Assembly (NCBI GenBank): GCA_020435005.1
Contig: JAGRAE010000014.1
Span: forward strand, 1-33,599
Source: Bdellovibrionales bacterium
GTDB lineage: Bacteria; Bdellovibrionota; Bdellovibrionia; Bdellovibrionales; UBA1609
Direction: 5' to 3'
DNA length: 33,599 nt
Position numbers and translations under genes: made by a program. The notes beneath the pieces are model-generated. The model was not told the DNA's origin. It did not search any database and saw only the letters and a list, made by a program, of their open reading frames with translations. Positions 3,031 to 32,616 of this stretch are shown piece after piece (positions within the stretch are counted from its first letter, which is position 1; each line of letters begins with the position of its first letter).

Positions 3031-3031
3031 T

Positions 3032-6000
3032 ATGAGAATCAGAAGCTACATTTACTTAATATTTGCTTTGTTTTTATCACAAAATGTGCTGGCTAAGACA
3101 GTTGCCTTAAACTCAAGTTTAATTGCAAATGGCTGTGAGAGTTTATTCCCCTTCTATACGGCGCAAACTCTTAAAATATCTTGTCTTGAAGATGAAGGTA
3201 TCTTTATTGAAACTAATAACGATTTGGAAATCGATGGAAAATTAGATTCAAAACATAAAATAATTATTGTTGCTAATTCAATTAAAATTCAAAAAGAGAG
3301 TCAAATAAAAGTAGATAGCCTAATCTTAGAGTCTACTGGTGACATTGAATTAAACGGCAAATTGTCTCTATATAAAACCCAAATTAAAACACAGTCAGAA
3401 TTACGAATACTGGGTGATATTTCATCGCATGAAAAAGCTTATGTGTATGCCAAAAAAATCTTAATTCAAGGACGCTTTAGTAATCAACTGGGCTCAAAAC
3501 TCAATGCACAAGATCTTATTTTAACTAGTGAACATAAAAATGGTGCCCAAGTAGTATCTACTGCAGGAATAATAGAAGCAAAAATAGAGAATGACATCAA
3601 TCTAATAAATGGACTTTTATTTTCAAGATATATAAGACTTTATTCCACATCATTAACTTGCGATCAATCACGTTTACGCACGACAGGCTTAATGCTTGTA
3701 AGATTACTTGAGCCAGAGGGTAACGGAGGAAACGATAGCAATAAAAGTAATGACATGAAATTTACTTCTTGCGATTTAAGTACAAAATTTGCGAACTTGG
3801 GTGATTCAATAAGGTTGTACCAAGAAAAGTACAACCTCTTTTTAGATCTCAATTGGGGCATTGCAGGTCCAAGACCTCAGCGCGATGATCCTAAGCGCGA
3901 TGAAAAATATATTCTACTGTATACCAAAGGTAATATCGAACTTAGTGATACTAGAATTACTCCTGTTGCAACAAAAGCTTATATACAGGGCAAAAAAGTA
4001 ACCGGTTACGGCGGTGCTATTGGCTACAATGGTTCGTTTAGTTCTTCTGATATTGAAATACGTTCTGAAATCCAAAATCTAGATAGCTATGTGGCTGGAG
4101 AAAATGTAAATTTATTACAGATTGGCAAAAAAAGTGATTTTAATAATTCAGGTTTAATTTATGCAAATAATGTAAAAACCATATCCGAAGGAAGTTTTTC
4201 TAACAGAGGTAGAATTAAAAGTACAAATAACACAACAGTCATGCAAAACTACAAAGACGGGAAATTAATAAATTCTGGTCATATAGCTGCTGGTGAAAAT
4301 TTATACTTAGAGGGTGATGGTGTCACCGATTATTCAAAAGGTACACGCACTGCTGGCAAGTTAATAGATATCGCTAATCATAAAGATTCAGTTATTAATC
4401 CCGGCAAGGTGAATACCAAGGATATGTATATAGCCAGAAACTGGAACTCAGATCAGATTAAGGAGTTTTCAGGATTTCAAGATCAATTAAATGTGGATTC
4501 ACTCGTTATCCATCGCAATTCAATAGATCCTAAAGATGAGCTAAAAATTAAAGACCATATTAAATTTAAAACTAACACCAATGTTGCCCTACTGGCCAAT
4601 AATGTTAAGCTATTACCTGGCGGTTCTGTAAGTACCAAAGGCGATCTAGATATAAATGCCATTATTGGTAATGTTGTATTAAGTGAAAATACTAAACTAA
4701 AATCAGAGGGTAAAGTTTTAGTTTTTGCGGGAAACACCATACAACAACTGGCTAAAGTTGTAGGCAGTGGTAGTTCAGCAGCACTTAAACGTTCAGAAAT
4801 CTTTTCTGGAAATGAAGGCGTCAGCTTTCAGGCTGAAAATTACTATGGTCAAGCACCAAAAATTGATGTGCAAGATGAGGGCACAGTTACATTTGATATA
4901 AACAAAGAAATTCAAATAGTGCCCATTGAGCATGAATATACTGAGTTAGTGTCAAAAAGAAAGAGTATTTGGGGCACAAAGCGCAAGTATGCCGTTCGTG
5001 TAAAATACTTTAATCCTGAGATCAATGCTAAGCAGATAAACGGAGTATTAGACGCTGAAAAGTCGACTCTTGTGAACACTCAACTCAATGGCAATATTAT
5101 TAGTTACGATTTAAATGAAGAGCATTTTAATCGCACAAAACACACGACTGAATATTATGAAGACCAAGAATATTTTTACAAAACCTATTCGGCTAACTTA
5201 TCTGCACATATTGTGCGAGCCGTGGTAACAGCGGTAGCTTATGTTTACGGTGGTCCTGCTGGAGGAGCTGCAGCATCAACCCTCACAGAAACCTTAGTGT
5301 CGGGTGAAAATCACACACTTGACAGTGCAATCAAATCATTTGCCGTTAACTACGCAGCTATGTCGGTGGCATCTAGTTATGGTGCTGTCAGTGGAAGTTT
5401 AACTAGAATTGCCGCTGATAAAGCCATCAACAACAGAAATTACACATTTAAAGAGTCCTTAGCGATGGTGGCAACTGCTGCCGCAAGTGAATATGTATTT
5501 AAAAATGAAGCTTTTAGTACTAAGAATGTAGAAAACTTAAGTGTTGGTGAGATCTATTTACAGAAGTTCTATGAGAATGCCACCTATAAGGTGATTAATC
5601 AGATTATCAATAAAGATGAAGCGCTAACTGCTCAGGGCTTTTTAAAAGATATCTCCGAATCCGCTCTAATAGATTTAGTTCATGATTTGGCTTTGATAGA
5701 AGCCACAAAGTTAAAACAACAACAAAGCCTTAGTTATAAGGAAGCGACCAAGAAGTTAGACCCCATAGAAAAGGCTAAGCTAGAGGAAATACAACAAGCT
5801 TTTGTAGACATACTCAATGAAGTTCAAGAAAAATCCGCCCAAGATTTTTACGGAAAGTCTTATAATGAATTAACAGATACAGAGAAGGCTAATTCTGAAT
5901 TTATAAATCAAACACGCACAATAGCTAGAAGAGTTTTAAAAGAAAATCAAAACAGCAATAAAAATTTTCTCGCTGATGCTCAAATATTTTTAATTAATGA

Positions 6001-6832
6001 AAATAACAGCGATAGTCCACTGAGATCTTCTGTAAGCAAGAATGAATTCAATTTATTACAAGAAGCCAGCTTTATGGCAGAAGTCTCAGAAATGGTTAAC
6101 AAATTTTTTGGGTTAGAACGTGAGGCCATAGATAAGGATGGAAATACCATCCCCACACCCAAATATGAATTTGATGAGGAGGATAAATTATTTAAAAATG
6201 CACTTCTCAACGGCGGAGAAGATACTCGCAAATATTTAGAGTACAGATACTTAATGGGTTTAGAGCCTATAATGTATAATGGGGAGCCCCATTATATAAA
6301 AGACCAATGGAAAATAGTCGATATAAATGGCAATTTTGTATCAGAAGTGGGTATAGACACGCCCATTCTTGATCCCATAGATTTAATTCCCACCACAGCT
6401 ATTTTGCGTGCCATTGCTAAGAGGTCTTTGTTAAAATTCAGCGCAAAAGAAACAGGTGAAGTTTTAGCCCGTGAATCGGCTGAGGCAGTAGACACCGCCC
6501 AGAGAATTGGGGTTAAGACTAAGGAGGGCACACTCAAACTTGGCAAGCACCTTTCAGCAGATAAAATAAGCCCGTTTGATTTAAACCCAACTCACAAGAT
6601 AACAATGGGTAAACGGACTTACCAAACTTTTAAAGAACAATTAAAGCAAGACGGTGTAGTTCGAGAAACAATTAAATATATAGAGTACAAAGGTCAAAAA
6701 TATATCGTTGATGGTCATCATAGAGCTAGAGTGGCCAAAGAGCTTGGTTTCAAGGTGGTGCCTGTAGAAAAAGTTGAATTACCATTTAAAGGATATAAAA
6801 ATATTGATGATGTACTTGCAGGGGGCAATTGA
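3032..6832 (+). CDS. Filamentous haemagglutinin-like polymorphic toxin with C-terminal ParB/Srx-like domain
   Basis: I chose the ATG at 3032, 1 nt after the previous stop, because it begins a signal peptide (MRIRSYIYLIFALFLSQNVLA). The upstream in-frame ATG at 2999 would overlap the previous gene by 32 nt and bury it. The product is 1266 aa. Residues ~40-620 are short beta-strand repeats (DLEIDGKLDS, DIELNGKLSL, ELRILGDIS, NLYLEGDG) typical of a secreted beta-helix. A Gly/Ala-rich hydrophobic stretch at ~730-755 and an alpha-helical region follow, as in FHA/CdiA proteins. The last ~95 residues form a ParB/Srx-type nuclease-like domain with the motif YIVDGHHRARVAKELG near residue 1224. Such domains are known tips of polymorphic toxins. 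The next gene overlaps the stop (TGATG) and is a likely immunity gene. I see no N-terminal TPS motif (NPNL/NPNG) and no CdiB gene. Target and activity are unproven. Confidence 0.85.
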   Translation: MRIRSYIYLIFALFLSQNVLAKTVALNSSLIANGCESLFPFYTAQTLKISCLEDEGIFIETNNDLEIDGKLDSKHKIIIVANSIKIQKESQIKVDSLILESTGDIELNGKLSLYKTQIKTQSELRILGDISSHEKAYVYAKKILIQGRFSNQLGSKLNAQDLILTSEHKNGAQVVSTAGIIEAKIENDINLINGLLFSRYIRLYSTSLTCDQSRLRTTGLMLVRLLEPEGNGGNDSNKSNDMKFTSCDLSTKFANLGDSIRLYQEKYNLFLDLNWGIAGPRPQRDDPKRDEKYILLYTKGNIELSDTRITPVATKAYIQGKKVTGYGGAIGYNGSFSSSDIEIRSEIQNLDSYVAGENVNLLQIGKKSDFNNSGLIYANNVKTISEGSFSNRGRIKSTNNTTVMQNYKDGKLINSGHIAAGENLYLEGDGVTDYSKGTRTAGKLIDIANHKDSVINPGKVNTKDMYIARNWNSDQIKEFSGFQDQLNVDSLVIHRNSIDPKDELKIKDHIKFKTNTNVALLANNVKLLPGGSVSTKGDLDINAIIGNVVLSENTKLKSEGKVLVFAGNTIQQLAKVVGSGSSAALKRSEIFSGNEGVSFQAENYYGQAPKIDVQDEGTVTFDINKEIQIVPIEHEYTELVSKRKSIWGTKRKYAVRVKYFNPEINAKQINGVLDAEKSTLVNTQLNGNIISYDLNEEHFNRTKHTTEYYEDQEYFYKTYSANLSAHIVRAVVTAVAYVYGGPAGGAAASTLTETLVSGENHTLDSAIKSFAVNYAAMSVASSYGAVSGSLTRIAADKAINNRNYTFKESLAMVATAAASEYVFKNEAFSTKNVENLSVGEIYLQKFYENATYKVINQIINKDEALTAQGFLKDISESALIDLVHDLALIEATKLKQQQSLSYKEATKKLDPIEKAKLEEIQQAFVDILNEVQEKSAQDFYGKSYNELTDTEKANSEFINQTRTIARRVLKENQNSNKNFLADAQIFLINENNSDSPLRSSVSKNEFNLLQEASFMAEVSEMVNKFFGLEREAIDKDGNTIPTPKYEFDEEDKLFKNALLNGGEDTRKYLEYRYLMGLEPIMYNGEPHYIKDQWKIVDINGNFVSEVGIDTPILDPIDLIPTTAILRAIAKRSLLKFSAKETGEVLARESAEAVDTAQRIGVKTKEGTLKLGKHLSADKISPFDLNPTHKITMGKRTYQTFKEQLKQDGVVRETIKYIEYKGQKYIVDGHHRARVAKELGFKVVPVEKVELPFKGYKNIDDVLAGGN

Positions 6833-7302
6833 TGGCTGTATGGCAGTATTCACTATTTTTAATTTCTAAGAATGAATTACTCAATAAACAAGGTAAATTA
6901 CCAGATTCACTTACTGAAGATGAGAGAGAAAATCTAATAGGATGGGAGGCTTCAACTAAGCTTACGATGATTGAGAAAATATTATCTAAGCATTTCAAAA
7001 AGAAGAAAAGTTGGAGTAATAATATCGAACAGTGGGGTGAAGAAGATAGTCATTGCGTTGAAGTTATTTGTGAAAATGATAGATTTTCAGAGGTATCAGT
7101 TCGATTAGATTTGAGAAATTTAAATGGTGACAACTTGAGGTTAATAGTGGATTTAGCAGAAACGCTTGATGCAATAGGTTTAAATATTGATGGTATTATA
7201 TTCGAAGTAAGTTTGAACAACTTAAAAAGTGAGATTAAAATTTCCGATGCTTTTAGCTTTGTAAAAGACCCTAAAGGTTTTTTATCAAATTTATCTAACT
7301 AA
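6832..7302 (+). CDS. Probable immunity protein for the ParB-tip toxin (156 aa)
   Basis: The ATG at 6832 overlaps the toxin stop codon (TGATG). An in-frame TTG one codon earlier is possible but less likely. A purine-rich GGGGGC run lies about 7-12 nt upstream. The product is a small, acidic, probably cytoplasmic protein with no signal peptide and no membrane segment. The N-terminal half is helical with a Lys-rich patch (KHFKKKKSW). The second half has alternating hydrophobic strands (SEVSVRLDLRNL, LRLIVDLAETL, GIIFEVSLNN). I do not recognise the family. The call rests on what is known of polymorphic toxin loci: a small, cytoplasmic, translationally coupled gene right after a toxin tip is nearly always the cognate immunity gene. 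Confidence 0.7.
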   Translation: MAVWQYSLFLISKNELLNKQGKLPDSLTEDERENLIGWEASTKLTMIEKILSKHFKKKKSWSNNIEQWGEEDSHCVEVICENDRFSEVSVRLDLRNLNGDNLRLIVDLAETLDAIGLNIDGIIFEVSLNNLKSEIKISDAFSFVKDPKGFLSNLSN

Positions 7303-9349: not shown

Positions 9350-10255
9350 TTAGCGTCCCCGATTTGGACAGTACAATCTATTGGTCAAACAGTACTCGAT
9401 GTATTTATTTGTCACTCGCGACCAAATGTTTTCGTGCTTTCCTGCAATTTGACCACTGAGGCCACGTCCTCCACCACTCAAGCCAGCCAGTTTTCTCTGT
9501 GGTGGTTTTTTAGGTAAATACTTAGCTAAATCAAAAGGCTTGGCTTTATTATTTCTACCACTACCGCCAACGGGGTTGGAATAGCCACCACCGCCACCGA
9601 AGCCCATACTCGATACCGAATATCCACTACCGCCACCAAGGCCGCCAAGGATATCTGTCTTTAAACCTTTTTGTTGGCCGCCACCGCCGCCACCACCAGA
9701 GGCTCCGCCACCACCCGTGCCACCGCCGCCGGGAAGTCCACCCGTTGTTCCACCTTGTGTGGCTACAACAGAGCGATCACCGATTTCATTATTGCCCGTC
9801 GAAGGCAATTGATTGCCAAGGCCTTCATCCGCACCGCCAAGGTCTACAGATTCACGAGTTCCACCGGCTGCACCAAAGGGTACCGATGAACCCGATCCAC
9901 TACCCAATTTATTTCGTGTGACATTACTTGCACTCTGACACTCGGGTAAATTCATGCTGCCTGGTTGAGAGCAAAATTGTTGTCGACAGTAAGGATTACT
10001 TAAATCTGTCGGATCAGAACACAAATTATTAGGTAGCCCAGGTGCGACTGGCGGGGGTGTTGCCATAGCTACATCTTGACAGATTTTTGCCATTTGCGAA
10101 GTGCTAACAAAAGTTGTAACAGCCCTTGTACCCATGTCGACTTCAGCAGTGGCTAAGGATTCGCATTTGTTGATGTGTTTATTAGTTTCGGCGATTAAGT
10201 TTTCATAGATTCTTTCACAGTTCGCATCGCCTGAGCATTGTGTATTGGCCGCCAT
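9350..10255 (-). CDS. Cys- and Gly-rich protein without signal peptide; probable 3' half of a split gene
   Basis: The product is 301 aa and I do not recognise the family. Residues 1-105 are Cys-rich (QCSGDANCER, NKCES, AKICQD, NLCSDP, YCRQQFCSQ, PECQ). Residues ~110-255 are low-complexity Gly/Ser-rich runs. The C-terminus is basic and ends YIEYCLTNRLYCPNRGR. So many cysteines suggest a disulphide-bonded exported protein, yet there is no signal peptide and no Shine-Dalgarno before the ATG. The upstream gene, which has a signal peptide, ends in TAG exactly seven codons earlier in the same frame. The simplest reading is one ~607-codon secreted protein interrupted by an amber codon, by mutation, sequencing error or readthrough. 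Two coupled genes remain possible. Base composition is visibly richer in G+C than the surroundings because of the Gly codons. Confidence 0.7.
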   Translation of the reverse strand: MAANTQCSGDANCERIYENLIAETNKHINKCESLATAEVDMGTRAVTTFVSTSQMAKICQDVAMATPPPVAPGLPNNLCSDPTDLSNPYCRQQFCSQPGSMNLPECQSASNVTRNKLGSGSGSSVPFGAAGGTRESVDLGGADEGLGNQLPSTGNNEIGDRSVVATQGGTTGGLPGGGGTGGGGASGGGGGGGQQKGLKTDILGGLGGGSGYSVSSMGFGGGGGYSNPVGGSGRNNKAKPFDLAKYLPKKPPQRKLAGLSGGGRGLSGQIAGKHENIWSRVTNKYIEYCLTNRLYCPNRGR

Positions 10256-10276
10256 TTTAGTTTTGATACTGTCGCG

Positions 10277-11173
10277 CTAAGTGGTGCAAGAGTTATCGCA
10301 AGTGCTGCGTTTCATATGGCATTGTGTGGCCATCGCCGTATTTATACCGGCACCAAAATTGGCTAAACCTGCCTGACTATCACAGTTTTCAGCCATGCTG
10401 GTTAATTGTCGGTTAGCAATTAAAGCTTGAGCGAGCATGGTTCCTACGGAAGTTATAGCACCAATGTCACTGTCTTTAGGTGCACCAATTAAGCAGCCCA
10501 TCGCGGTGGGACCACAACAATACTCTGCATCCTCGCGCATGTCTTTACATTGAACTTCAATTTGTGGTTCAAAAATATCTTTATCTGCCCGTGCAACATC
10601 GTAGGGATTGCTTCCACTACCAGGTGGTGGTGTATTGCCTCCTGGAGGCTCTTCTGGTGGAGGTGTATCAGCTGGTGGTGGGGGTTCTTTCGCCACAGGA
10701 GGGGTAGCAGTTTCCCTTAGCTTAGCTTCTTGTACAGCAGAACAGCTGTTAAACTCTACTCCGTAGCATTCAACTTTTAAATCATCACATTTTTTCTCAT
10801 CATTGAATGTGTTTTGACACAATGTTAAAAAAAGATTGGCCTGATCATTATCACTATCATTTACAGTACCTGTATTACTTCCATTTGAAGGGTTTTGACT
10901 AAAACAAGTATAAATATTTCCACTACAATCACTAATCGATACTGGATAAAAAAATGGATCAACTTCATAATGCATTAAACCCTTATCATTACAGTAATAT
11001 TTTGCTAGTTCAGTGGCATCTGATGTTTGTGGGGACTGTATTGCACAAATATTTCCTGCTTCGCCTGCGAGCTGTGTGCCTCTGCCGGTATATTTTTTGA
11101 TGGCTTCCTCTAAATCTAAGGAAAACCCTTCAAAAACATAAAGAAATGTAAATAGAAATATCAAATACTTCAT
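10277..11173 (-). CDS. Secreted Cys/Pro-rich protein; probable 5' half of a split gene
   Basis: I chose the ATG at 11173 over the one at 11197. It follows AGTAGGGAGCTC, a good Shine-Dalgarno, and starts a signal peptide (MKYLIFLFTFLYVFEGFS). The product is 298 aa. A Cys-containing N-terminal domain (ICAIQS, YYCNDKG, SDCSGNIYTCF, KKCDDLKVECYG) is followed by a Pro-rich linker near 165-200 (EPPPPADTPPPEEPPGG). A second Cys-rich part has EYCCGPTAMGCLIG and ends CHMKRSTCDNSCTT. The family is not recognised. The stop is TAG, followed by C, and the same frame reopens for the 301-aa Cys/Gly-rich protein. Together they would make one envelope or extracellular protein with alternating Cys-rich and low-complexity segments. 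Confidence 0.75.
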   Translation of the reverse strand: MKYLIFLFTFLYVFEGFSLDLEEAIKKYTGRGTQLAGEAGNICAIQSPQTSDATELAKYYCNDKGLMHYEVDPFFYPVSISDCSGNIYTCFSQNPSNGSNTGTVNDSDNDQANLFLTLCQNTFNDEKKCDDLKVECYGVEFNSCSAVQEAKLRETATPPVAKEPPPPADTPPPEEPPGGNTPPPGSGSNPYDVARADKDIFEPQIEVQCKDMREDAEYCCGPTAMGCLIGAPKDSDIGAITSVGTMLAQALIANRQLTSMAENCDSQAGLANFGAGINTAMATQCHMKRSTCDNSCTT

Positions 11174-11237
11174 GAGCTCCCTACTTTTTTCGGACAAAAA
11201 TCGACAATTATTAAAGAGTTTCTAGATGGCTATCACT

Positions 11238-11304
11238 TTGATACACAAAAATTGTATCAAATTAAGCAAAGGATTAAAATTTTTTTAGAAAAGACGTATC
11301 AAAT
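11238..11304. repeat. Cluster of GTATCAA/TTGATAC repeats between two secreted-protein genes
   Basis: TTGATAC (11238-11244) and GTATCAA (11254-11260) form a perfect 7-bp inverted repeat with a 9-nt loop. A third copy, GTATCAAAT, lies at 11296-11304 and matches the second copy over 9 nt. They lie between the stop of the 468-aa gene (11318) and the start of the Cys/Pro-rich gene (11173). They could be an operator or a weak hairpin; no T-run supports termination. The 144-nt gap holds nothing else I can identify. Confidence 0.35.
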
Positions 11305-11317
11305 AGAGACAAGTATT

Positions 11318-12724
11318 TTAATAATTACTATCTTTTAATGTTTGATAAAAATCACCTCTAACAAGTCTTACTACATTAGCATTATACCTAGGATCACATG
11401 TGCTTCCATGAAATCGCACATTACCATCATTAGTCTTTGTGCCATGATAAACACCCATTACAGCTTCAAACTTTCCATAATTTGGAATTTCGATATTCGA
11501 TGCCATATTACCGCCACCAGACCCACCACCATTAATGTCTGTACAAGTTAACACATTATGTTCAGAATCATAATTTATAAACTTTGAGTTTTTTGTAAAA
11601 ACTCTTCGATCATCATCAGAAACACTTATCTTTTTATATTCTTTACTTAAACCATATTGCTTAAAGTTTATATCTTTCTTATTCCAAATAATGTCATTAA
11701 TCTCACTATCGCTTAAACTAATTATAGGTACTGTTTGAATTCCAAAATTTGCTTCAATGACACCTGCAGACCACTCAACATCATCATCATTATCTGCAGC
11801 TTTTGTCCATGGCGTAAATTTTTTAATTACTCTAGCTCTTAAGTTAACTTCATTATTCCTAAAATCTTCTTTGCTGTATTTCAATGTTGCATTTGTTTTA
11901 TCAATATTAATTGGCTCATTTCCACTAGGATAAAAATAGCATTCATCAGTTAATTTTATAATCTTCTTTTCCCATTTCCCAGTGGCTCTATTTTTTACAA
12001 AGTCTGTAACACTTTCCATCCAGTTATGACCAACAGCTGCGATTCGCACTCTATTTTTAGGAAGTCTTGTCCACTCGTGATAAGAAAATGTACGTGTTGC
12101 TTGGTCATACTTAATTTCATCTTGTACAGCTGTAGCAGAACCAATTTCACGCAAGTTACCCTTTTCACTCATACACCAAAGCCCACCACTTGCCTTACAA
12201 CCCAAATCCGAACTATTACATTCTCTTCTTGAGTCTTCATCACCATTTTTACGGTTGTTATCACCCATTATGTCAACTTTCCTAGATAACTTCTGGTGTA
12301 GCTCTCGAAGGCCTTTGGCTTCTACGCCATTTGTGTGCATGTCATCGCAAGCCACATTGTCGTCTTTTTCAACTGTTAATTTTAAATCTCCGTGAATAAA
12401 ACCATCTTTTTCGTAAGGGCCGAAATCCTGTCCAACAACAGCATCTCCTTTGGCTAAACCACTTTCTACACCCATTGTTACTCGAGTTGTTTCGCAAGCT
12501 GTTCGCTTTAAAGATTTACCTACAGTTTTTAATACTGATTTTGGTAATGAACGAAGATACTCTTGTGCAAGCCTTGTAACCTCAGGGTCGCCACAGTTGA
12601 GATCGTTAAGATTTAAGGCATGAATTGAAGGTGAAAATAATAATAGGAATAGCGTAATAACCGATAGGGAACTGACATTTTTTGATTTATTTGAATTAAA
12701 AAACATTGGTGTTTTACTTCTCAT
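11318..12724 (-). CDS. Secreted protein of unknown family (468 aa)
   Basis: AGGAAAG precedes the ATG at 12724. The N-terminus has a charged stretch, then a hydrophobic segment (LSVITLFLLLFSPSIHA) that reads as a Sec signal peptide with cleavage after IHA. The mature protein starts LNLNDLNCGDPEV, has about ten cysteines (for example CDDMHTNG, RRECNSSDLGCKASGGLWC, DECYFYPSG) and a Gly-rich insert (GGGSGGGN) near residue 405. There is no later membrane segment and no catalytic motif I recognise. It is the first of the run of secreted, Cys-containing minus-strand proteins, 144 nt before the next one, and probably belongs to the same envelope or extracellular function. Confidence 0.8.
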   Translation of the reverse strand: MRSKTPMFFNSNKSKNVSSLSVITLFLLLFSPSIHALNLNDLNCGDPEVTRLAQEYLRSLPKSVLKTVGKSLKRTACETTRVTMGVESGLAKGDAVVGQDFGPYEKDGFIHGDLKLTVEKDDNVACDDMHTNGVEAKGLRELHQKLSRKVDIMGDNNRKNGDEDSRRECNSSDLGCKASGGLWCMSEKGNLREIGSATAVQDEIKYDQATRTFSYHEWTRLPKNRVRIAAVGHNWMESVTDFVKNRATGKWEKKIIKLTDECYFYPSGNEPINIDKTNATLKYSKEDFRNNEVNLRARVIKKFTPWTKAADNDDDVEWSAGVIEANFGIQTVPIISLSDSEINDIIWNKKDINFKQYGLSKEYKKISVSDDDRRVFTKNSKFINYDSEHNVLTCTDINGGGSGGGNMASNIEIPNYGKFEAVMGVYHGTKTNDGNVRFHGSTCDPRYNANVVRLVRGDFYQTLKDSNY

Positions 12725-18552: not shown

Positions 18553-19332
18553 TTATACGACTGGAATAAAAGATTTAACTACTAAATCATATGATTTTTC
18601 AGCTAAGGCTTGAGCTTCGTTAACTTCTATAGTTGGCAATTCAGATAAATATTCTAATTCAACTTCTATATTTGATTGCCCCATTAATCTCCATAAATGA
18701 GGAACAAAACTCATCCCTCCATACCAGAATAACAGATCGCGATTTTGTGGGCTTACCACTTGATTATTTATTTTCTTATAGTTTATGCAAATAGGTTTTA
18801 CAAATTTTTTACTAGCGATAGCTGCATTATACAAAGGTCTTCTAAAACGCAATACTGATTCGCCATTTGTACTTGTTGCCTCAGGAAAAATAGTTACATT
18901 TATTCCTCGCTTTAGAGCCTCAGAAATCTCATTAATTTCATTTTGAATGTTTGCTTTACTTCTTCTCTCTACATAAAGGCAACCACCCACCTGTGTCATA
19001 AACCCCAACACAGGTGTTTCTTTAATTTCCATTGAAGTCACAAAACAACTGGGAAACTGTGAAGTGGTTATGAGAATATCTATATAAGACAAATGATTTG
19101 ATACAATTAAATAACTATTACTACCATTTACTGTTTGACCCTTCGATTTTATAGTTATGCCTATTAAATTTAGTGCTCTATGCGTCCAAAATCTTAAAAA
19201 GGGATACATTGCATTTCTATATTCCCAAGGTCGTTTTCTATAGAAAAAATAAAGAACAAGCATATTTATCATATACATGACAATGTATATGATCATTAAT
19301 GTGAACTTAAAAAGTTGTTTTAATTTATACAA
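18553..19332 (-). CDS. 1-acyl-sn-glycerol-3-phosphate-type acyltransferase, PlsC/OlsA-like (259 aa)
   Basis: The gene starts with TTG immediately after the previous gene's TAG (TAGTTG). GGAGAG seven bases upstream supports this start; later ATGs would cut into the membrane anchor. Residues 10-30 are a hydrophobic membrane segment. The acyltransferase motifs are present: NHLSYIDI with His80 and Asp85 (HX4D) and FPEATSTNG at 149-157 (motif III). PlsC-family enzymes move an acyl chain onto a hydroxyl of a lysolipid. Because it directly follows an OlsB-like N-acyltransferase gene, the likely job is OlsA-like O-acylation of an N-acyl amino acid to give an aminolipid. A role in phosphatidate synthesis is the alternative. 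Confidence 0.88.
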   Translation of the reverse strand: MYKLKQLFKFTLMIIYIVMYMINMLVLYFFYRKRPWEYRNAMYPFLRFWTHRALNLIGITIKSKGQTVNGSNSYLIVSNHLSYIDILITTSQFPSCFVTSMEIKETPVLGFMTQVGGCLYVERRSKANIQNEINEISEALKRGINVTIFPEATSTNGESVLRFRRPLYNAAIASKKFVKPICINYKKINNQVVSPQNRDLLFWYGGMSFVPHLWRLMGQSNIEVELEYLSELPTIEVNEAQALAEKSYDLVVKSFIPVV

Positions 19333-20193
19333 CTATTCTCTCCAGGGTTTAAAGTAACGCTTATAATACATTGGATTAATATTTTCTAAATCTAAAACCG
19401 TAAAATAATCTGTGCATCCAAAACTTTTATCCAAAGCTGGCTCCCCATATATAAAAGCTCCCGCTGCCAAATATGATTTCATAAGTGAGGGAATGTATTG
19501 TTCAATATCAAAGTTCTCTTCTTTAACAATTTGTAATTTTGAAAAGTGTGGATACACGTATTTTTTAGTTGGGTGAATATTAAATTTGTTACCTTGATAT
19601 TCTTTTTGACAAAAATTGAGAACGGATGCTGCTAATTCCGAATCTGTAGTGCGCACACTTGTACAGCCAAATAAATAGCTGGCTTCTGTCAACAAAACAT
19701 ATTTTGCCAAGCCTCTCCAAATTAAACTGATACTCGCTCCGGTTCTGTAATCTGGGTGAATACATGCTCTACCCAATTCAACTTTTACACCTGGTGATCT
19801 TTTAAATTCATTGATTTCAAATTCACTATCTGAATAAAACTCATTGGTAAATGAAGAACACATTAATCTATATGTTCCAATAATTTTCTGGGTGGCCTGA
19901 TCAATAAGTATGACATGATCTCCCAATAGGTCCAACTTATCAAAGTCAATCTCAGAAAACTTCATTTTCACGCCATATGTTTCTGTAAAAATATTGTATC
20001 TAAGTTTTAAAACTTCCCACAGTTCTTTTGAATTACTAACTGTTTTAATTGTGTAACCATGAAAATCAAAAGAGAAGGATACTTTTGGGTAAAATGATTT
20101 TAATTTTAACTCTAAATACCTTTTTTTAAAAGACTCCCATCTTAGAGATTTTGCTGATGACCTCAAAATGTTTCTTGCTGTTTGAGTATTCAT
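19333..20193 (-). CDS. OlsB-like GNAT N-acyltransferase (hemolysin-like family, 286 aa)
   Basis: The sequence has the acyl-ACP-using GNAT fold (Acetyltransf_5). LWEVLKLRYNIFTETYGVKM is the N-terminal helix, IIGTYRLMCSS the core strand, KVELGRACIHPDYRTG the signature, and YLFGCTSVRT a later strand. OlsB transfers a 3-hydroxyacyl chain from ACP to the amino group of ornithine; relatives use lysine, glycine or other amines. The ATG at 20193 overlaps the M20 gene stop (ATGA) and has GGGAGG upstream, and the next gene is PlsC-like. This gives an OlsB-OlsA order typical of ornithine-lipid-type synthesis. The C-terminal ~60 residues (LMKSYLAAGAFIYGEPALDK) also match the family. The amino acid substrate cannot be read from the sequence. 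Confidence 0.85.
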   Translation of the reverse strand: MNTQTARNILRSSAKSLRWESFKKRYLELKLKSFYPKVSFSFDFHGYTIKTVSNSKELWEVLKLRYNIFTETYGVKMKFSEIDFDKLDLLGDHVILIDQATQKIIGTYRLMCSSFTNEFYSDSEFEINEFKRSPGVKVELGRACIHPDYRTGASISLIWRGLAKYVLLTEASYLFGCTSVRTTDSELAASVLNFCQKEYQGNKFNIHPTKKYVYPHFSKLQIVKEENFDIEQYIPSLMKSYLAAGAFIYGEPALDKSFGCTDYFTVLDLENINPMYYKRYFKPWRE

Positions 20194-26584: not shown

Positions 26585-27423
26585 TGTGTAGGATATTTGG
26601 ATTTAGATCTGTTATCAAAAGCCAAGTACACCATAGTTTAATCAGTGCTGACAATGCTATTCATAACCAAAGTGAAAATCATCCTGACGGCTGGGGGGTT
26701 GCCTACTATGTGGATAGTTCTCCACATGTAATTAAATCTGAAAAAACGGCTATCCAAGACCATTTGTTCAAAAGAGTTTCTGGAATTGTAAATTCACAAA
26801 CAGTCATTGCACATATTCGCAATGCTACTTCCGGTCAGCAGAACATATTAAACACCCATCCATTCCAATATGGTCAATGGGTCTTTGCCCATAATGGAAA
26901 TATAAAAAACTTTAGTACAACAAAAAATAAATTGCATGGTTTAGTAAACCCTCATTTATTTAAGTACATACTTGGTGATACGGATAGTGAAATATTATTT
27001 TATATCCTATTAACTGAGCTACAAAAAATACAAAATCTTACGGATTTATGTACTTTAAATAATTTGTTTGAAATGAACACTAAGGCTATAGAAAAAATAA
27101 CAAAAATTATTGGTCCATGTTTAAATCAAGATGATGGACCAATAAATGAAAATTACTTAACTTACATATTAACTAATGGTCAGGTCTTTTTTGCCTATCA
27201 AGGTGGCAAGCAGCTTTATTATTCAACTCACAAAAGTAAATGCAAAGAAAGAAATTCTTGTCCATTTTTTGCTGAGGAATGTGAAAATCCAACTCTCAAC
27301 GGAAAAGTTAACCACTTGCTATTTTCAAGTGAACCCATTCAAGGGGACAATGTGTGGTTGCCGATGACATTTGGCCAAAGCCTAGGTGTAGATAATCAAA
27401 TGATACTAGGGATTTCCTCTTAG
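26584..27423 (+). CDS. Class II glutamine amidotransferase (279 aa)
   Basis: The second residue is the catalytic cysteine (MCRIFGFRS), exposed after removal of Met. The Ntn-hydrolase motifs of the family follow: NHPDGWGVAYY near 32-43, TVIAHIRNATSG near 80, and HPFQYGQWVFAHNGNI near 95-110. The protein is a stand-alone glutaminase-type domain of the YafJ/EgtC type, without a synthase domain. It would release ammonia from glutamine or hydrolyse a gamma-glutamyl amide; the true substrate is unknown. Two extra CxxxxxCP-like cysteines (KCKERNSCPFFAEEC) near 220-230 are unusual and could bind a metal. It is coupled to the lipoprotein gene, and its 3' end overlaps by 18 nt the 3' end of the convergent minus-strand gene. 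Confidence 0.88.
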   Translation: MCRIFGFRSVIKSQVHHSLISADNAIHNQSENHPDGWGVAYYVDSSPHVIKSEKTAIQDHLFKRVSGIVNSQTVIAHIRNATSGQQNILNTHPFQYGQWVFAHNGNIKNFSTTKNKLHGLVNPHLFKYILGDTDSEILFYILLTELQKIQNLTDLCTLNNLFEMNTKAIEKITKIIGPCLNQDDGPINENYLTYILTNGQVFFAYQGGKQLYYSTHKSKCKERNSCPFFAEECENPTLNGKVNHLLFSSEPIQGDNVWLPMTFGQSLGVDNQMILGISS

Positions 27424-28731
27424 TTTTTTTAGCCATTCAGGCTGTGGCACCCAGTCTTCATTAAAATTTATTGGCAATTCTTTTTTAGGCAATTCAGCTT
27501 GTAACTTTTCATATTCATCTCTTGATAAATATTCACCGCCCATATTTTCTGTATTTGGAGTTACCATACCTGTATTTAAAAATGTAATACCTGCTTCGTA
27601 CAATTTATCCATTAAAGCAAGAATTGCAAAATTAGCTTTATCAATTCCATCTTTATACAATAAAGTTTCTGGGTGGAAGACATTACCCGATCGACTACCA
27701 TAAGTTCCAGCTACCAATTCTCCATTGCCATTCCAGACTTCAACAGTAATAAAATCACCTTTTTTAAATGATTCTCTAAAATTATCATAGTCAGCCTTTG
27801 TAAATCGATTGGACTCATCTTCATCTTGACCAACACGGCTCTGCTCTTCAGTGAGCTTAATCAAACCTTCTAAATCTTTATTAAAAGTAATTCTCCACCC
27901 CTGTTTTTGAACCAGCGGATTCGCCGATCTGCGTAGTTTCATATAGCGACTATTTCTTCCGCCAGTTTTGTGTTTTTCTATATATCTTTCAGTAGTAATA
28001 ACACCGACTATCTTCGTATAAAACCATCCTCTTTGGTACAAAAAGTATTCACCATAATAGTCTGATGAATCCTCATGAGTAGGCATTTTCACCTTTGACT
28101 CTGAAGACATAACTTTTAAATTTTCAGGAGTAAACAATTCAGCTACTTGCTCATCTGGAACTCTAACAGCCTTTCCTTCTTCAAAATACCACATACCCTT
28201 TTTAGAATAAGATCTTTTAAAAGCCTCTTGAGCAAGTTGTTTTTGTTTCTTTTCATTCCTTTCGTCTAAATACCTATAAATATTTAAGGGATTGATTTGC
28301 TGCTCTAATTTACCTTTTATATACTTTACTACCTTAGAGCCTGATAACTTCTTTTGCTCTTTTAAACTGTTATATTTTAAAACATCTTCATCAATTAGAT
28401 AAAATCCCTTCATTAATGGATCTTTGTTGTCACTAAAGTTATCAAACTGTTCTGCCACTTCAAGACTTGGCATTATATAAATTCTAGCACCCCACCATTT
28501 CGCCCCAATTTCTCTCATTTTTTCTTCGTTGCTGGCATTGTATTCTGGTACTGCACCCAAAAAACCTCGATACCCCAATCCTTGTTCTGGATTCAGCAAC
28601 AACTTATTAGCAAGTATTATGTTGCAAAATGTAGGTGGAATTTCTGTTTTATGTTTTTCTTCAGCCCAAGCATGAGATGTAATTAAGAATTGCAATAAAA
28701 CTAAATAAATTAAAAATATTTTTCTTACCAT
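27406..28731 (-). CDS. Secreted protein with leucyl/phenylalanyl-tRNA-protein transferase (Aat)-like domain (441 aa)
   Basis: MVRKIFLIYLVLLQFLITSH plus AWA is a clear Sec signal peptide, so the protein leaves the cytoplasm. Residues ~226-432 follow the Aat pattern: YQRGWF (Aat YQRGIF), GWRITFNKDLEGLIKL, ITVEVWNGNGELVAGTYGS (Aat SIEVW..ELVGGMYG), an F-x-x-E with Glu355 (Aat FxGES), and the ending SRDEYEKLQAEL then LPINFNEDWVP (Aat LPNNFWVP). However, the IDCQ motif whose Asp and Gln are reported as important in the E. coli enzyme is FLNTGM here. Cytoplasmic Aat adds Leu/Phe from tRNA to protein N-termini; a secreted version cannot do that in the usual way. Residues 30-225 are an unrecognised extra region. 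It lies 18 nt after the 1288-aa membrane protein gene and is surely cotranscribed. Confidence 0.75.
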   Translation of the reverse strand: MVRKIFLIYLVLLQFLITSHAWAEEKHKTEIPPTFCNIILANKLLLNPEQGLGYRGFLGAVPEYNASNEEKMREIGAKWWGARIYIMPSLEVAEQFDNFSDNKDPLMKGFYLIDEDVLKYNSLKEQKKLSGSKVVKYIKGKLEQQINPLNIYRYLDERNEKKQKQLAQEAFKRSYSKKGMWYFEEGKAVRVPDEQVAELFTPENLKVMSSESKVKMPTHEDSSDYYGEYFLYQRGWFYTKIVGVITTERYIEKHKTGGRNSRYMKLRRSANPLVQKQGWRITFNKDLEGLIKLTEEQSRVGQDEDESNRFTKADYDNFRESFKKGDFITVEVWNGNGELVAGTYGSRSGNVFHPETLLYKDGIDKANFAILALMDKLYEAGITFLNTGMVTPNTENMGGEYLSRDEYEKLQAELPKKELPINFNEDWVPQPEWLKKLRGNP

Positions 28732-28741
28732 AAACCTTTTA

Positions 28742-28767
28742 TCTCTTCTTTATCTCTCTTCTTTATC
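28742..28767. repeat. 13-bp tandem duplication across the stop codon of the 1288-aa gene
   Basis: On the minus strand GATAAAGAAGAGA occurs twice in perfect tandem. The first copy encodes the last residues (DKEER) and the second contains most of the gap and purine-rich ribosome-site region before the next ATG. The stop TAA spans the junction area. Confidence 0.7.
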
Positions 28768-31700
28768 TAAAACGCTATTACACGGAGACTTTTCTCCTTC
28801 GTTTTGAGTTTTTTGATTTAAATTCATTTTACTATTGGTCTCAGTAGTAGGTTTACTTTTTATGCCAAGCTTGCGTTTAATATTAGGCCATAATTTACCC
28901 AAATAATATTCCCAAGGTTCTTTACCTAAAGTTGCATAGGCAGCACCATAAAGACCTAAACTTCCTAGTGACCAAGCAATTAAATTAGTACCCGTAATCC
29001 ATTCTGGATTAAATGTATTCACCGCTAAGGGAATTGATAACCAAGTAGTTAATACAGCTCCACCAACCCATGAGGCAAACCAAGCTGTCCAAGAGTTCGC
29101 ATTGGTATAGATCGGCGTATTTTCAACACTGAACTCTAACAAACTTTGAGCATTTAGCTTATTTAATTCATCCAGATCTAAATTTTGATCATCAATCATG
29201 ATTTGCTTTAAAATATCAGAATAAAGTTTAATTTCTTGCTCATTTTGTTCAGTGATAGCAATAGATAAACTCACAATAGTAGAATAATAGTGTTTAGCTT
29301 CCTCAGTTACTTTTGTGTTCTTTGCATTAGTAAAAAGTTGATTGATTTGCTTTATACCTCTGACTTGATTCTCAGCTTCTTCCAATACTTTTGGGTTGTA
29401 TTTTCTAAACAGCCCAAACATTTCATCCACACCCGTATCGAGTAGTTCTTTAGCACGCTCTGGATTTTCTTCTTTCAACCCCTGAGACAATTTAAAACGG
29501 GCATCTTTTAAGGCTAAATTCATTTCCTCTTCACGGTTTTCTTGAAGTTGAGTTCCACGGTCGACAATATCCCATGGGTAACCAAAAACCCAATTTGCGG
29601 CAAAACGAAAGATCACAAATGCCAAAAGCATATCGCCAACAGGTTGATCTGTAAAAACCAAACGTGTAGCCATCCACATGATCAGTGCCGCTTGCGAAGT
29701 TGCAACATATCGCTGGAACCTCTTCCACATAAGAGCCCCAAGGTCTGCCTTTAGAGGGTTAGAAACATTTTTAACCCACAAGCCCGTTGACCTTAAAAAG
29801 CCTTCTGTTCGTTCTTTTGTTGGAAAAATAAAGTCTTCTAAAGCTTCATAATTATTTTCAGCTTCTGAATGCAGACGTTGATACACCAAAGCCAAACTAG
29901 AACCTGATGCAAAAAAGTGACTATAAGTATTTAAAGAGACGTCAGCCCAATGCACACCGTTTGTCTTTAAAAAACCATTGGGGTCCGCTGCCAACTGATC
30001 GGGCTGCATAAGATCAGCTCTTTCCCCAACAAGGGCATAAATCCCTGCAACCATCAAATGATCGGGAACAAAATGACGTTCAATTTGATTAGATACAAAT
30101 TTATTGGTGAAAACCTTCATTAAAAATTCGTGTTCAGTAACCCCCCAATTTAAAACCCAGTTTTTAAATCTTCCGGATTTATATCTTATCCAATTATTGA
30201 GGATACCCGTTTTCACTTCTAATTTTGATTTTGCTTTAATAGCCTTGGCATTTGCATAGGCCAGATCCAGCATAGTTTGCATTTTTTCTTTATTGAGCTC
30301 AGTAACATCAAGGTCTGCTGATTTGTATTGTAAATCATTTAATTGCTTTGAAAGGGTTGATAATAAAAGTATAAACTCATCAGTCTTTTCTTTGTCGGTA
30401 AATATGTTCTCTATATTTTCCGGACTTACCATATCTGAACCCACGGCGGCTATTAATGCTGGATCTATACTTTCTTTTTCACTAACTACTAAAATGGCTA
30501 ATAGCCAAGCCAGGTTATCAACTTTAGCTTTTTGCTGGTGCACAGCACTTTGCAATCTTAATTTTTGGATACGCTCTTCCTCAAAAGCTTTTTTACTATT
30601 CTTGCCCCAGAGTCCACCTAAAGGGTTATTAGTTCCAACACTTGAATCTCTTTTTAAGCCTGCCATTTTACCGATAACAGAGTCTTCTTTTACTTTTCTG
30701 AAAGGATTGAGCCCGGTACGAATGGCTTCTAAGAAAGTGGTTTGGCGAAATCCATTGCGAATTAAAACATTCCATAGCGGATAGATAATTGTTCCGTAGA
30801 AGCGCATGCCAAAGCTACCGATTCTCTGCCAGGGAGTTAAATCCACCCATTTTTTTCTCAAATCGCGAAACACTTGTGCTACTTTTGAACTACTATTCTT
30901 AAAACCAGCTGTAATAACTTGAATAAACTTTCCTGCAAATATGGATGTCAAAATACCTAAAGGCCACAATGCTGTAATGTACAACATACTTTGATTATTT
31001 ATATAACGGTAAGCTTCATCTTTCATGACATCAGTAACTGCATGGTCATAAAGCCAAGTTAATGCTTGTACCTGTTGCAACAGCTCACTGGATTCATAGG
31101 CAAATGGATAAGCGACATAGGCTGAAAATCCACCGATCAAAACTGAAGCGGGTTGCAGCATTAACTTTTTCATTCGCAATAAAGCCTGCTTAACCTTTAC
31201 TGTTTTACCTACTTTTGGCGTAAAGTCTTGCTGGTTTATATCTTTTTCCGCCTCTTGTTTTTGAACCAATTCTTTCCATGAACCAGCAAAAGAACCCTTC
31301 TCACTTTCGTTTTCTAGATTCTTTAACTTTACTTCCAGCTCTTGAAGTTTAACTATATTTTTTGATTTTTTAATTTGCGATTTTAACACTTCTTGTTCAT
31401 GTCGTGCTTGGTTTTGTATTTGTTCAAATTGATCGAGCCATTCTTCCACACTAAAAGTATCAAAATTTCGAGATTTTAAGCCATTGACTTCAAAGCCACC
31501 TTTTATATCGACTTTTCTTCTCGATAAAAACTGCAATTGCTCTTTTTTAACACCCAACAAGGCATTGCGCACTTCTGAATAAGAATTTGCCTTTTGTAAG
31601 CGATGAGCTTCTTCCTGGGAGCCCATGTCTTCTAAATCTTTTATTATAGATTTTAGGTTTTCATTGGTATTCACATCTGGGTTTGAAATAAAAGCTATCC

Positions 31701-32616
31701 ACTCGAGAACAGTTGAAGCAAAAACAATGTGTTCATAAGTTACAGATCTTGAAAACACCCCAAACAGTTCATCATCTTGACCCTTTTGATTTTCAATAGT
31801 GACTATTAAGTCGCCTGCGCGAAGGCGTATGTAACCATCTTTATCACGCGGAAGTACAGAATTTAATTTTTCTTGATCTAAAGAAAATGGCTTAAGACCT
31901 CGAGTTAAGTAACTTGCTTTTAATTTTTTTCCGCTCAAATCCATTTTCTCAGTGGGTACCCAAAAATCAGTCAATACGGGAATGGGACTTTTAAAACCTT
32001 GTTCTTTGACAAAGCCCATATCGATCACATGTAAGCGACCTTGATTATCTATAATCGATAACATTTCTTTATCTTGAGCCATGGTGGCAATATCCATTTC
32101 GGGAATATATTGTTTTGCAACTAACTGCCCGCCTTCTCCATGATCATCAGCACCACGATAGCCCTCAAAAATAAGTTCTTTTGTTTCTTCATCATAAACG
32201 ACTTTAAGAGAGGTTACAGAAATTATAGGTAGTCCAACACTTTCACGACCTAATTGGATATTTACGCTTTTTTCTTTATCAAAAATTTCAATTCTTTGCT
32301 TAGTGAGTCTAAAAGAGTCATATTTTTCGGGATCGATTTTGGCCAGCTCGCCATTTTCGAGATCATCTGCAAATTGGTCAAACTTTTGAGCTTGTAAACG
32401 CACATCAGGTATGTCTAAACCTTGGCGTACTGCAAATCTGAAAAGATCGCTACTTCTATGTTTTTCACCATTATCTTGGGCTTCAGCATGCGCTTGATAA
32501 AATAAAGAAGTATTAAAGGTGAGTTGGAAAACTAAGATTAGTTTTAAAATTTGAGAAATTTTGTTTTTAACGACAAAACTCTTAAAGAACTTGTATATGT
32601 TCTTACTACCCTTCAT
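28750..32616 (-). CDS. Large polytopic envelope protein of unknown function (1288 aa)
   Basis: I do not recognise the family. The N-terminus has a basic region and a hydrophobic segment (ILKLILVFQLTFNTSLFYQA) ending AHA, a likely signal peptide. Residues ~50-480 look soluble, probably extracytoplasmic, and include a coiled coil near 395-450 (HEQEVLKSQIKKSKNIVKLQ). Several membrane segments follow: VLIGGFSAYVAYPFAY, LYITALWPLGILTSIFAGKF, MRFYGTIIYPLWNVLI, then LIMWMATRLVF and MLLAFVIFRFAANWVFG. Two more near the C-terminus lie around WFASWVGGAVLTTWLSIPLA and LIAWSLGSLGLYGAAYATLG. The tail is short and charged. There is no transporter motif I can name. It is cotranscribed with the secreted Aat-like protein, 18 nt downstream, so the two may work together at the envelope. 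Confidence 0.8.
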   Translation of the reverse strand: MKGSKNIYKFFKSFVVKNKISQILKLILVFQLTFNTSLFYQAHAEAQDNGEKHRSSDLFRFAVRQGLDIPDVRLQAQKFDQFADDLENGELAKIDPEKYDSFRLTKQRIEIFDKEKSVNIQLGRESVGLPIISVTSLKVVYDEETKELIFEGYRGADDHGEGGQLVAKQYIPEMDIATMAQDKEMLSIIDNQGRLHVIDMGFVKEQGFKSPIPVLTDFWVPTEKMDLSGKKLKASYLTRGLKPFSLDQEKLNSVLPRDKDGYIRLRAGDLIVTIENQKGQDDELFGVFSRSVTYEHIVFASTVLEWIAFISNPDVNTNENLKSIIKDLEDMGSQEEAHRLQKANSYSEVRNALLGVKKEQLQFLSRRKVDIKGGFEVNGLKSRNFDTFSVEEWLDQFEQIQNQARHEQEVLKSQIKKSKNIVKLQELEVKLKNLENESEKGSFAGSWKELVQKQEAEKDINQQDFTPKVGKTVKVKQALLRMKKLMLQPASVLIGGFSAYVAYPFAYESSELLQQVQALTWLYDHAVTDVMKDEAYRYINNQSMLYITALWPLGILTSIFAGKFIQVITAGFKNSSSKVAQVFRDLRKKWVDLTPWQRIGSFGMRFYGTIIYPLWNVLIRNGFRQTTFLEAIRTGLNPFRKVKEDSVIGKMAGLKRDSSVGTNNPLGGLWGKNSKKAFEEERIQKLRLQSAVHQQKAKVDNLAWLLAILVVSEKESIDPALIAAVGSDMVSPENIENIFTDKEKTDEFILLLSTLSKQLNDLQYKSADLDVTELNKEKMQTMLDLAYANAKAIKAKSKLEVKTGILNNWIRYKSGRFKNWVLNWGVTEHEFLMKVFTNKFVSNQIERHFVPDHLMVAGIYALVGERADLMQPDQLAADPNGFLKTNGVHWADVSLNTYSHFFASGSSLALVYQRLHSEAENNYEALEDFIFPTKERTEGFLRSTGLWVKNVSNPLKADLGALMWKRFQRYVATSQAALIMWMATRLVFTDQPVGDMLLAFVIFRFAANWVFGYPWDIVDRGTQLQENREEEMNLALKDARFKLSQGLKEENPERAKELLDTGVDEMFGLFRKYNPKVLEEAENQVRGIKQINQLFTNAKNTKVTEEAKHYYSTIVSLSIAITEQNEQEIKLYSDILKQIMIDDQNLDLDELNKLNAQSLLEFSVENTPIYTNANSWTAWFASWVGGAVLTTWLSIPLAVNTFNPEWITGTNLIAWSLGSLGLYGAAYATLGKEPWEYYLGKLWPNIKRKLGIKSKPTTETNSKMNLNQKTQNEGEKSPCNSVLDKEER

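Follow-up and report, generated by a model that had tools for sequence, protein, structure and literature searches.

An Aat-like protein of a Bdellovibrionales bacterium with a predicted signal peptide and an altered active site

Leucyl/phenylalanyl-tRNA-protein transferase (Aat) is an N-degron enzyme that acts inside the cell, where it transfers an amino acid carried by tRNA to a protein; it is seen as tRNA-bound and purely cytoplasmic. In E. coli Aat, whose residue numbers (W49, W111, E156, D186, Q188) were verified on the MG1655 sequence (b0885) and are used below, we take W49 and W111 to hold the terminal adenosine of the tRNA, and D186 and Q188 to be the catalytic pair. A divergent Aat paralogue recruited to another job is described in Streptomyces, the livipeptin L/F-transferase (PMC10548850). 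No report of an exported Aat was found in the open-access literature searched.

The window analysed here is a stretch of 33,599 nucleotides from a Bdellovibrionales bacterium (GenBank assembly GCA_020435005.1, contig JAGRAE010000014.1). An earlier, sequence-only reading had described in it an Aat-like exported protein with an altered active site, and this is borne out by Pfam, structure models, the predicted signal and the motif alignment. The coordinates given for the gene, 27406-28731, stand, and its strand is corrected to minus: the open reading frame of this 441-residue, long-type protein, called P0001, begins at an ATG at 28731, preceded by an AGG-type ribosome-binding site, and stops at 27406. 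PADLOC made no call for P0001.

Residues 1-23 of P0001 (28663-28731, minus strand), MVRKIFLIYLVLLQFLITSHAWA, with cleavage between AWA and the following E, form a predicted Sec-type signal peptide. Signal peptides were called by a heuristic of hydropathy and n/h/c-regions, for which cytoplasmic Aats served as control. Over 12-residue segments near the N-terminus, the highest hydropathy is 2.75 in P0001 and 1.7-3.1 in exported forms at their listed starts, against 0.75-1.5 in 8 canonical, cytoplasmic Aats from related genomes. One exported form, G034_C21, scores 1.52 because its listed start misses the signal, which is found in frame just upstream. In a wider set, a few canonical Aats score 1.7-2.5 as well, owing to a hydrophobic stretch inside the protein beside GLVAVGG or to a short extension of the start, but have no other part of a signal peptide, so that the heuristic is no substitute for SignalP. 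By this heuristic the Sec signal claimed for P0001 is predicted there and also in all 16 long homologues examined; the short exported members each have a hydrophobic signal too.

The sole cysteine of P0001, Cys36 (28624-28626, minus strand), lies close behind the signal, as a cysteine does in 9/9 short and 16/16 long exported Aats, in the context C-x-x-x-[LF] (loci L034-L048, L085, L087, L088, L090, L094 and L099); in one long member it precedes the listed start by a short distance, in the same frame. The same motif and a signal peptide are present in an exported RimJ-like GNAT (Acetyltransf_3, kin of acetyl-CoA enzymes; L085:3231-3899, minus strand), the gene of which adjoins that of a long exported Aat in divergent orientation.

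The family assignment is clear at the level of Pfam: PF03588 (Leu_Phe_trans) matches residues 264-401 with E 9.3e-14 and 51.7 bits, for a gathering score of 22.7. The TIGR00667 equivalog gives only 28 bits, below its cut-off of 143.55. Among PDB sequences, the sole real matches are E. coli Aat entries. The AlphaFold model of P0001 has a mean pLDDT of 53 and is good in the C-terminal half only, where most ten-residue blocks of residues 262-420 lie at 64-87 (lower around 300); residues 97-232 are below 50. Its clear top match by Foldseek is E. coli Aat (E 1e-10); by VIA, it aligns with 2dps_B over 189 residues (Z 20.3, rmsd 4.6), and in a second alignment with E. coli Aat over 170 residues (Z 19.9, rmsd 2.5-2.6 Å). 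Thus the comparison of a predicted structure with E. coli Aat, which had been proposed as a check, returned the Aat fold. FemX is the next family (Z 12.8), and no Fem profile was listed for P0001 at E ≤ 10 in the profile search. A compact paralogue of 391 residues, G019_b, gave a better model (pLDDT 75, pTM 0.72), in which residues 27-383 align with Aat 7-232, over 220 residues of the 228-residue target (rmsd 3.1, Z 18.5). This whole-length alignment, together with the match of P0001, indicates that the mature protein comprises an entire Aat, interrupted by an insertion. On these models the fold is that of Aat, not just of a GNAT.

Three parts of the mature protein can be delimited on this basis, all on the minus strand. 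A first segment, approximately residues 45-95 (28447-28599), belongs to the Aat N-terminal domain and includes W80, the equivalent of W49; it is placed by alignments and by the structural alignment of the paralogue, which covers the whole mature length. An insertion of about 135 residues follows (approximately residues 96-230; 28042-28446), between W49 and W58 in E. coli numbering. It is specific to the long clade, being absent from canonical and short Aats, and coincides with the part modelled at pLDDT below 50. The remainder of the Aat fold, including the GNAT core, occupies approximately residues 231-430 (27442-28041). The C-terminal half is therefore Aat-like, as first noticed, but the likeness is not limited to it, since the N-terminal Aat domain is also there. 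The idea that residues 25-225 form an unrelated domain was rejected, because the W80 region aligns with the Aat N-terminal domain and only residues ~96-230 are inserted.

The motifs quoted at the outset (F-x-x-E, LPINF..WVP and LNTG) were all found in P0001, which carries E331-VWNGNGELVAGTYG-345, FHPE at 352-355, and LPINF..WVP close to the C-terminal end. By alignment, the equivalents of W49, W111, E156, D186 and Q188 are W80, R309, E355, N386 and G388. Arg309 (27805-27807, minus strand) replaces the adenosine-stacking Trp111, and L385-N386-T387-G388 (27568-27579, minus strand) replaces I185-D186-C187-Q188 of the E. coli enzyme. P0001 also retains equivalents of W58, G127, E133 and G143, and K167 has become Asn367. 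With W111, Q188, D186 and K167 changed to Arg, Gly, Asn and Asn, features of aminoacyl-tRNA use and the catalytic relay have been lost.

Two tiers of exported Aats emerged when 369 Bdellovibrionota genomes were surveyed. Short forms, with the site for the tRNA end and the catalytic site virtually intact, are present in 9 genomes (loci L038, L044-L048, L087, L088 and L090). A profile made from these nine members scores them at 315-366 bits and all other Aats at 235 or less, a clean separation. Long forms, with the insertion, W111 replaced by Arg and usually Q188 by Gly, are present in 8 of the 369 genomes, that of P0001 among them; seven are detected at E ≤ 1e-36, and one genome (G098) carries a more diverged copy. 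Several copies per genome are common: three in the genome of P0001, G000 (P0001, C322 and C255), three each in G019 and G034, and two each in G050, G011 and G362. Besides these, G000 encodes ClpS and, on contig C323, a canonical cytoplasmic Aat (213 bits). G019 and G362 have long exported Aats only, with neither canonical Aat nor ClpS (the genomes being 91% and 76% complete, respectively); in G019, of 1.8 Mb, three long exported Aats lie in direct tandem (L101:5907-9859). No exported Aat was found in group g38, more than 20 genomes of ~3.0-4.1 Mb that are probably Bdellovibrio itself. A scan of named genomes with P0001 alone gave no match, and with a four-sequence alignment it gave two MAGs only, Bdellovibrionales JALZUS01 and Bdellovibrionaceae CANEZP01. 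Plasmids gave no match. The long clade thus appears, from its sequences and their distribution, to be a branch of Aat paralogues specific to Bdellovibrionota and found only in some relatives of the predatory Bdellovibrio.

Residues were counted in an alignment of 57 canonical (E. coli included), 9 short exported and 14 long exported Aats. Position 111 is Trp in 57/57 canonical and 9/9 short sequences, and Arg in 14/14 long ones, or in 15 of 16 once two very diverged extra members are added. Q188 is kept in 56/57 canonical (one is masked) and 9/9 short sequences, whereas the long ones have Gly (nine), Gln (three), Glu (one) or Met (one). D186 is kept in 57/57 and 9/9, and the long forms have Asp in ten cases, Asn in three and Ile in one. 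E156 is conserved in 56/57 canonical sequences (one masked) and all nine short ones, and is Glu or Asp in all 14 long ones. Finally, W49 is Trp in 57/57 canonical, Trp or Tyr in 9/9 short (Tyr in two) and Trp in 13/14 long sequences. In this alignment, the replacement of W111 by Arg, which the sequence-only reading had not noticed, is a fixed change of the long clade, and LNTG is the extreme of a trend rather than a fixed signature, the majority of long members retaining Asp186. The change from IDCQ to LNTG, correct for P0001, therefore does not extend to its clade. The survey of homologues that had been suggested came out likewise divided: predicted signal peptides are common to all 16 long forms examined, LNTG is not uniform, and the short exported forms are intact.

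P0001 has shed more of the active site than most of its long siblings. Of 36 near-invariant Aat positions, 15 are kept by the long clade (in at least 70% of members) and 12 by P0001. The clade has its own conserved positions, Arg309 and Gly325 (14/14 each), Gly342 and Trp80 (13/14 each), in proteins only ~20-31% identical to P0001. Such invariant residues in divergent proteins suggest selection rather than decay.

In a phylogenetic tree, the long forms are monophyletic (bootstrap 100, SH-aLRT 98) and nested in paraphyletic short exported forms, with canonical Aats outside. In a broader tree with the 57 canonical Aats, rooted on E. coli, the exported group has an SH-aLRT of 87 and the long clade of 99; the forks that make the nesting have moderate support (81-93), and both trees contain long branches. 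Since the long clade is nested in short exported forms with an intact site, export would have come first and remodelling of the active site later. The order suggested by the sequences would be a duplication of aat, acquisition of a signal peptide while the active site stayed intact, and then the insertion, W111 to Arg and drift at Q188. The sequence-only reading had set loss of the motif beside export. The two are separate events, as nine exported relatives keep W111, E156, D186 and Q188.

Upstream of P0001, with an 18-bp gap, lies its operon partner (28750-32616, minus strand), a 1288-residue exported protein from a family of Bdellovibrionota in which no domain is recognised; Pfam and NCBIfam gave no match and the PDB no convincing relative, its weak hits being de novo helical bundles. 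Its sole cysteine, Cys1279, is 10 residues from the C-terminus. In another genus (G011), a homologue of 1413 residues (23% identity, E 1e-59) is flanked by two exported Aats; the second of these is truncated where the contig stops, and its remainder is on C124, the overlap being identical. Of 140 genomes of the order, 16 encode a member of the giant family. For the remaining giant loci that were retrieved, from 15 genomes, the list of Aat hits was empty, so that linkage to Aat is seen in two genomes only. Throughout the family (28750-32616; L134, L136-L139, L141-L146, L043), the proteins are exported, 1200-1400 residues long and without known domain; the C-terminal cysteine is invariant (13/13 aligned copies), 5-16 residues from the end in the context C-x-x-x-[FL], which resembles that of the cysteine behind the signal of exported Aats, and is often the sole cysteine of the mature protein. 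At Aat-linked loci, 22/22 single-Cys exported proteins have their cysteine in a terminal position. A single terminal cysteine as a general export tag was rejected: two 400-kb control stretches had no such enrichment, which confines the tag to certain families.

Elsewhere in the window, a large exported haemagglutinin-like protein (2999-6832, plus strand), with a ParB-like tail by eye and no Pfam match, is overlapped by a 157-residue open reading frame (6829-7302, plus strand), possibly a polymorphic toxin and its immunity protein. At 9350-12724 (minus strand) are three successive exported or low-complexity proteins without Pfam match. At 18553-20193 (minus strand), an OlsB-like GNAT (Acetyltransf_5) adjoins a PlsC-type acyltransferase, a pair that probably serves ornithine-lipid synthesis.

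What does P0001 do? Sequences and models point, with evenly balanced confidence, to a transferase that acts outside the cytoplasm and whose donor site has changed, in an exported Aat clade specific to Bdellovibrionota. After export, it would take an acyl or aminoacyl group from a donor other than the 3' end of tRNA and attach it to an amine on a peptide or protein. The Arg that invariably occupies the former adenine-stacking site may hold this new donor, for example via an anionic group, and the N-terminal Cys and the insertion may tether P0001 or hold a partner, plausibly the giant protein from the same operon. Because two genomes with long forms lack both canonical Aat and ClpS, the job seems to be apart from the N-degron pathway. 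A new job outside the cytoplasm, as first proposed, is thus retained as the best reading; as for the kinship with Fem transferases invoked with it, Fem proteins match about as well as the other GNATs that use aminoacyl-tRNA and no better (Z ~12, compared with 18-20 for Aat). A job on the cell wall is neither supported nor excluded.

The 12 of 36 near-invariant positions kept by P0001 count against a transferase, as they fit a binding protein equally. The main rival is accordingly an exported, non-catalytic binder, whose Aat cleft would bind peptides, N-termini or another envelope ligand, perhaps as a subunit alongside the giant partner; we consider it a realistic though doubtful alternative. 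The loss in P0001 of all four residues at positions 111, 167, 186 and 188, the long branches and the variability of position 188 within the clade would suit it. However, D186 persists in ten and an acidic residue at 156 in all 14 aligned long members, the clade has an invariant pocket residue of its own, R309, and GNAT catalysis is possible without one fixed base.

Aminoacyl-tRNA is not expected outside the cytoplasm, an argument that holds for the bacterium's own envelope and would fail if the protein reached the cytoplasm of prey. Exported Aats might be passed into other cells, prey for example, and work on the aminoacyl-tRNA of those cells, with P0001 as a derived member of the set. The site of the nine short forms (28-42% identity), with W111, E156, D186 and Q188 intact and Trp or Tyr at W49, is indeed hard to explain without aminoacyl-tRNA; the order includes Bdellovibrio, and the exported RimJ-like GNAT next to one long form would fit as well. 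Nevertheless, the adenine-stacking Trp is gone in every aligned long member, P0001 included, and the probable Bdellovibrio group has no exported form, which makes this an unlikely account of P0001. A composite history, in which Aat gave rise to a set of secreted transferases, the short forms acting on another cell's aminoacyl-tRNA and the long forms later acquiring a new donor and extracytoplasmic targets, is also improbable as a whole.

A transferase using an aminoacyl-phospholipid, the product of MprF, as envelope donor would keep to the same reaction, from aminoacyl ester to amide; a phosphate would be well served by the Arg that has replaced the adenine-stacking Trp, and an LPG_synthase_C protein is encoded in G000 and G019; but as only 2 of the 8 long-positive genomes have such a match, the MprF product cannot be the general donor, and we give this reading very little credence. 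That P0001 is a decaying copy without function, as the patchy distribution of long forms could suggest, is most improbable given open frames of 380-690 residues in several families, often in multiple copies, with clade-specific invariant residues and a conserved signal and Cys.

On the preferred reading, an extracytoplasmic transferase, the Aat fold would have left the cytoplasm and taken a new job. The exported clade, with a site intact in short forms and then changed in a fixed way in long ones, offers a natural series for exploring other capacities of this fold. It also leads to a question that can be tested: where would an aminoacyl-tRNA enzyme find its substrate once exported?

Among known systems, FemX/FemA, the C-terminal domain of MprF and the peptide synthases Sbb17/Sba18 share with P0001 a GNAT-type fold that transfers aminoacyl groups (Z ~10-13), but they are more distant than Aat, are cytoplasmic or membrane proteins, and use aminoacyl-tRNA. 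The livipeptin enzyme is tRNA dependent and pairs with an NRPS-like protein for peptide biosynthesis, and no export is described for it (PMC10548850), whereas P0001 is predicted to be exported. With E. coli Aat (PDB 2cxa, 2dps, 2z3k; PF03588, TIGR00667), P0001 shares the whole fold, namely the N-terminal domain with W49 and the GNAT core, as well as E156 and many glycines. It differs by its predicted export, the insertion and the four substitutions, and, compared with the Aat equivalog, it falls far under the TIGR00667 cut-off and seems not to be tied to ClpS. The short exported Aats stand in between: like P0001, they have a predicted signal peptide, a Cys behind it and the Aat fold; unlike it, they lack the insertion and have a canonical active site, save for Tyr in place of W49 in two of them, and they form the grade that would have given rise to the long clade.
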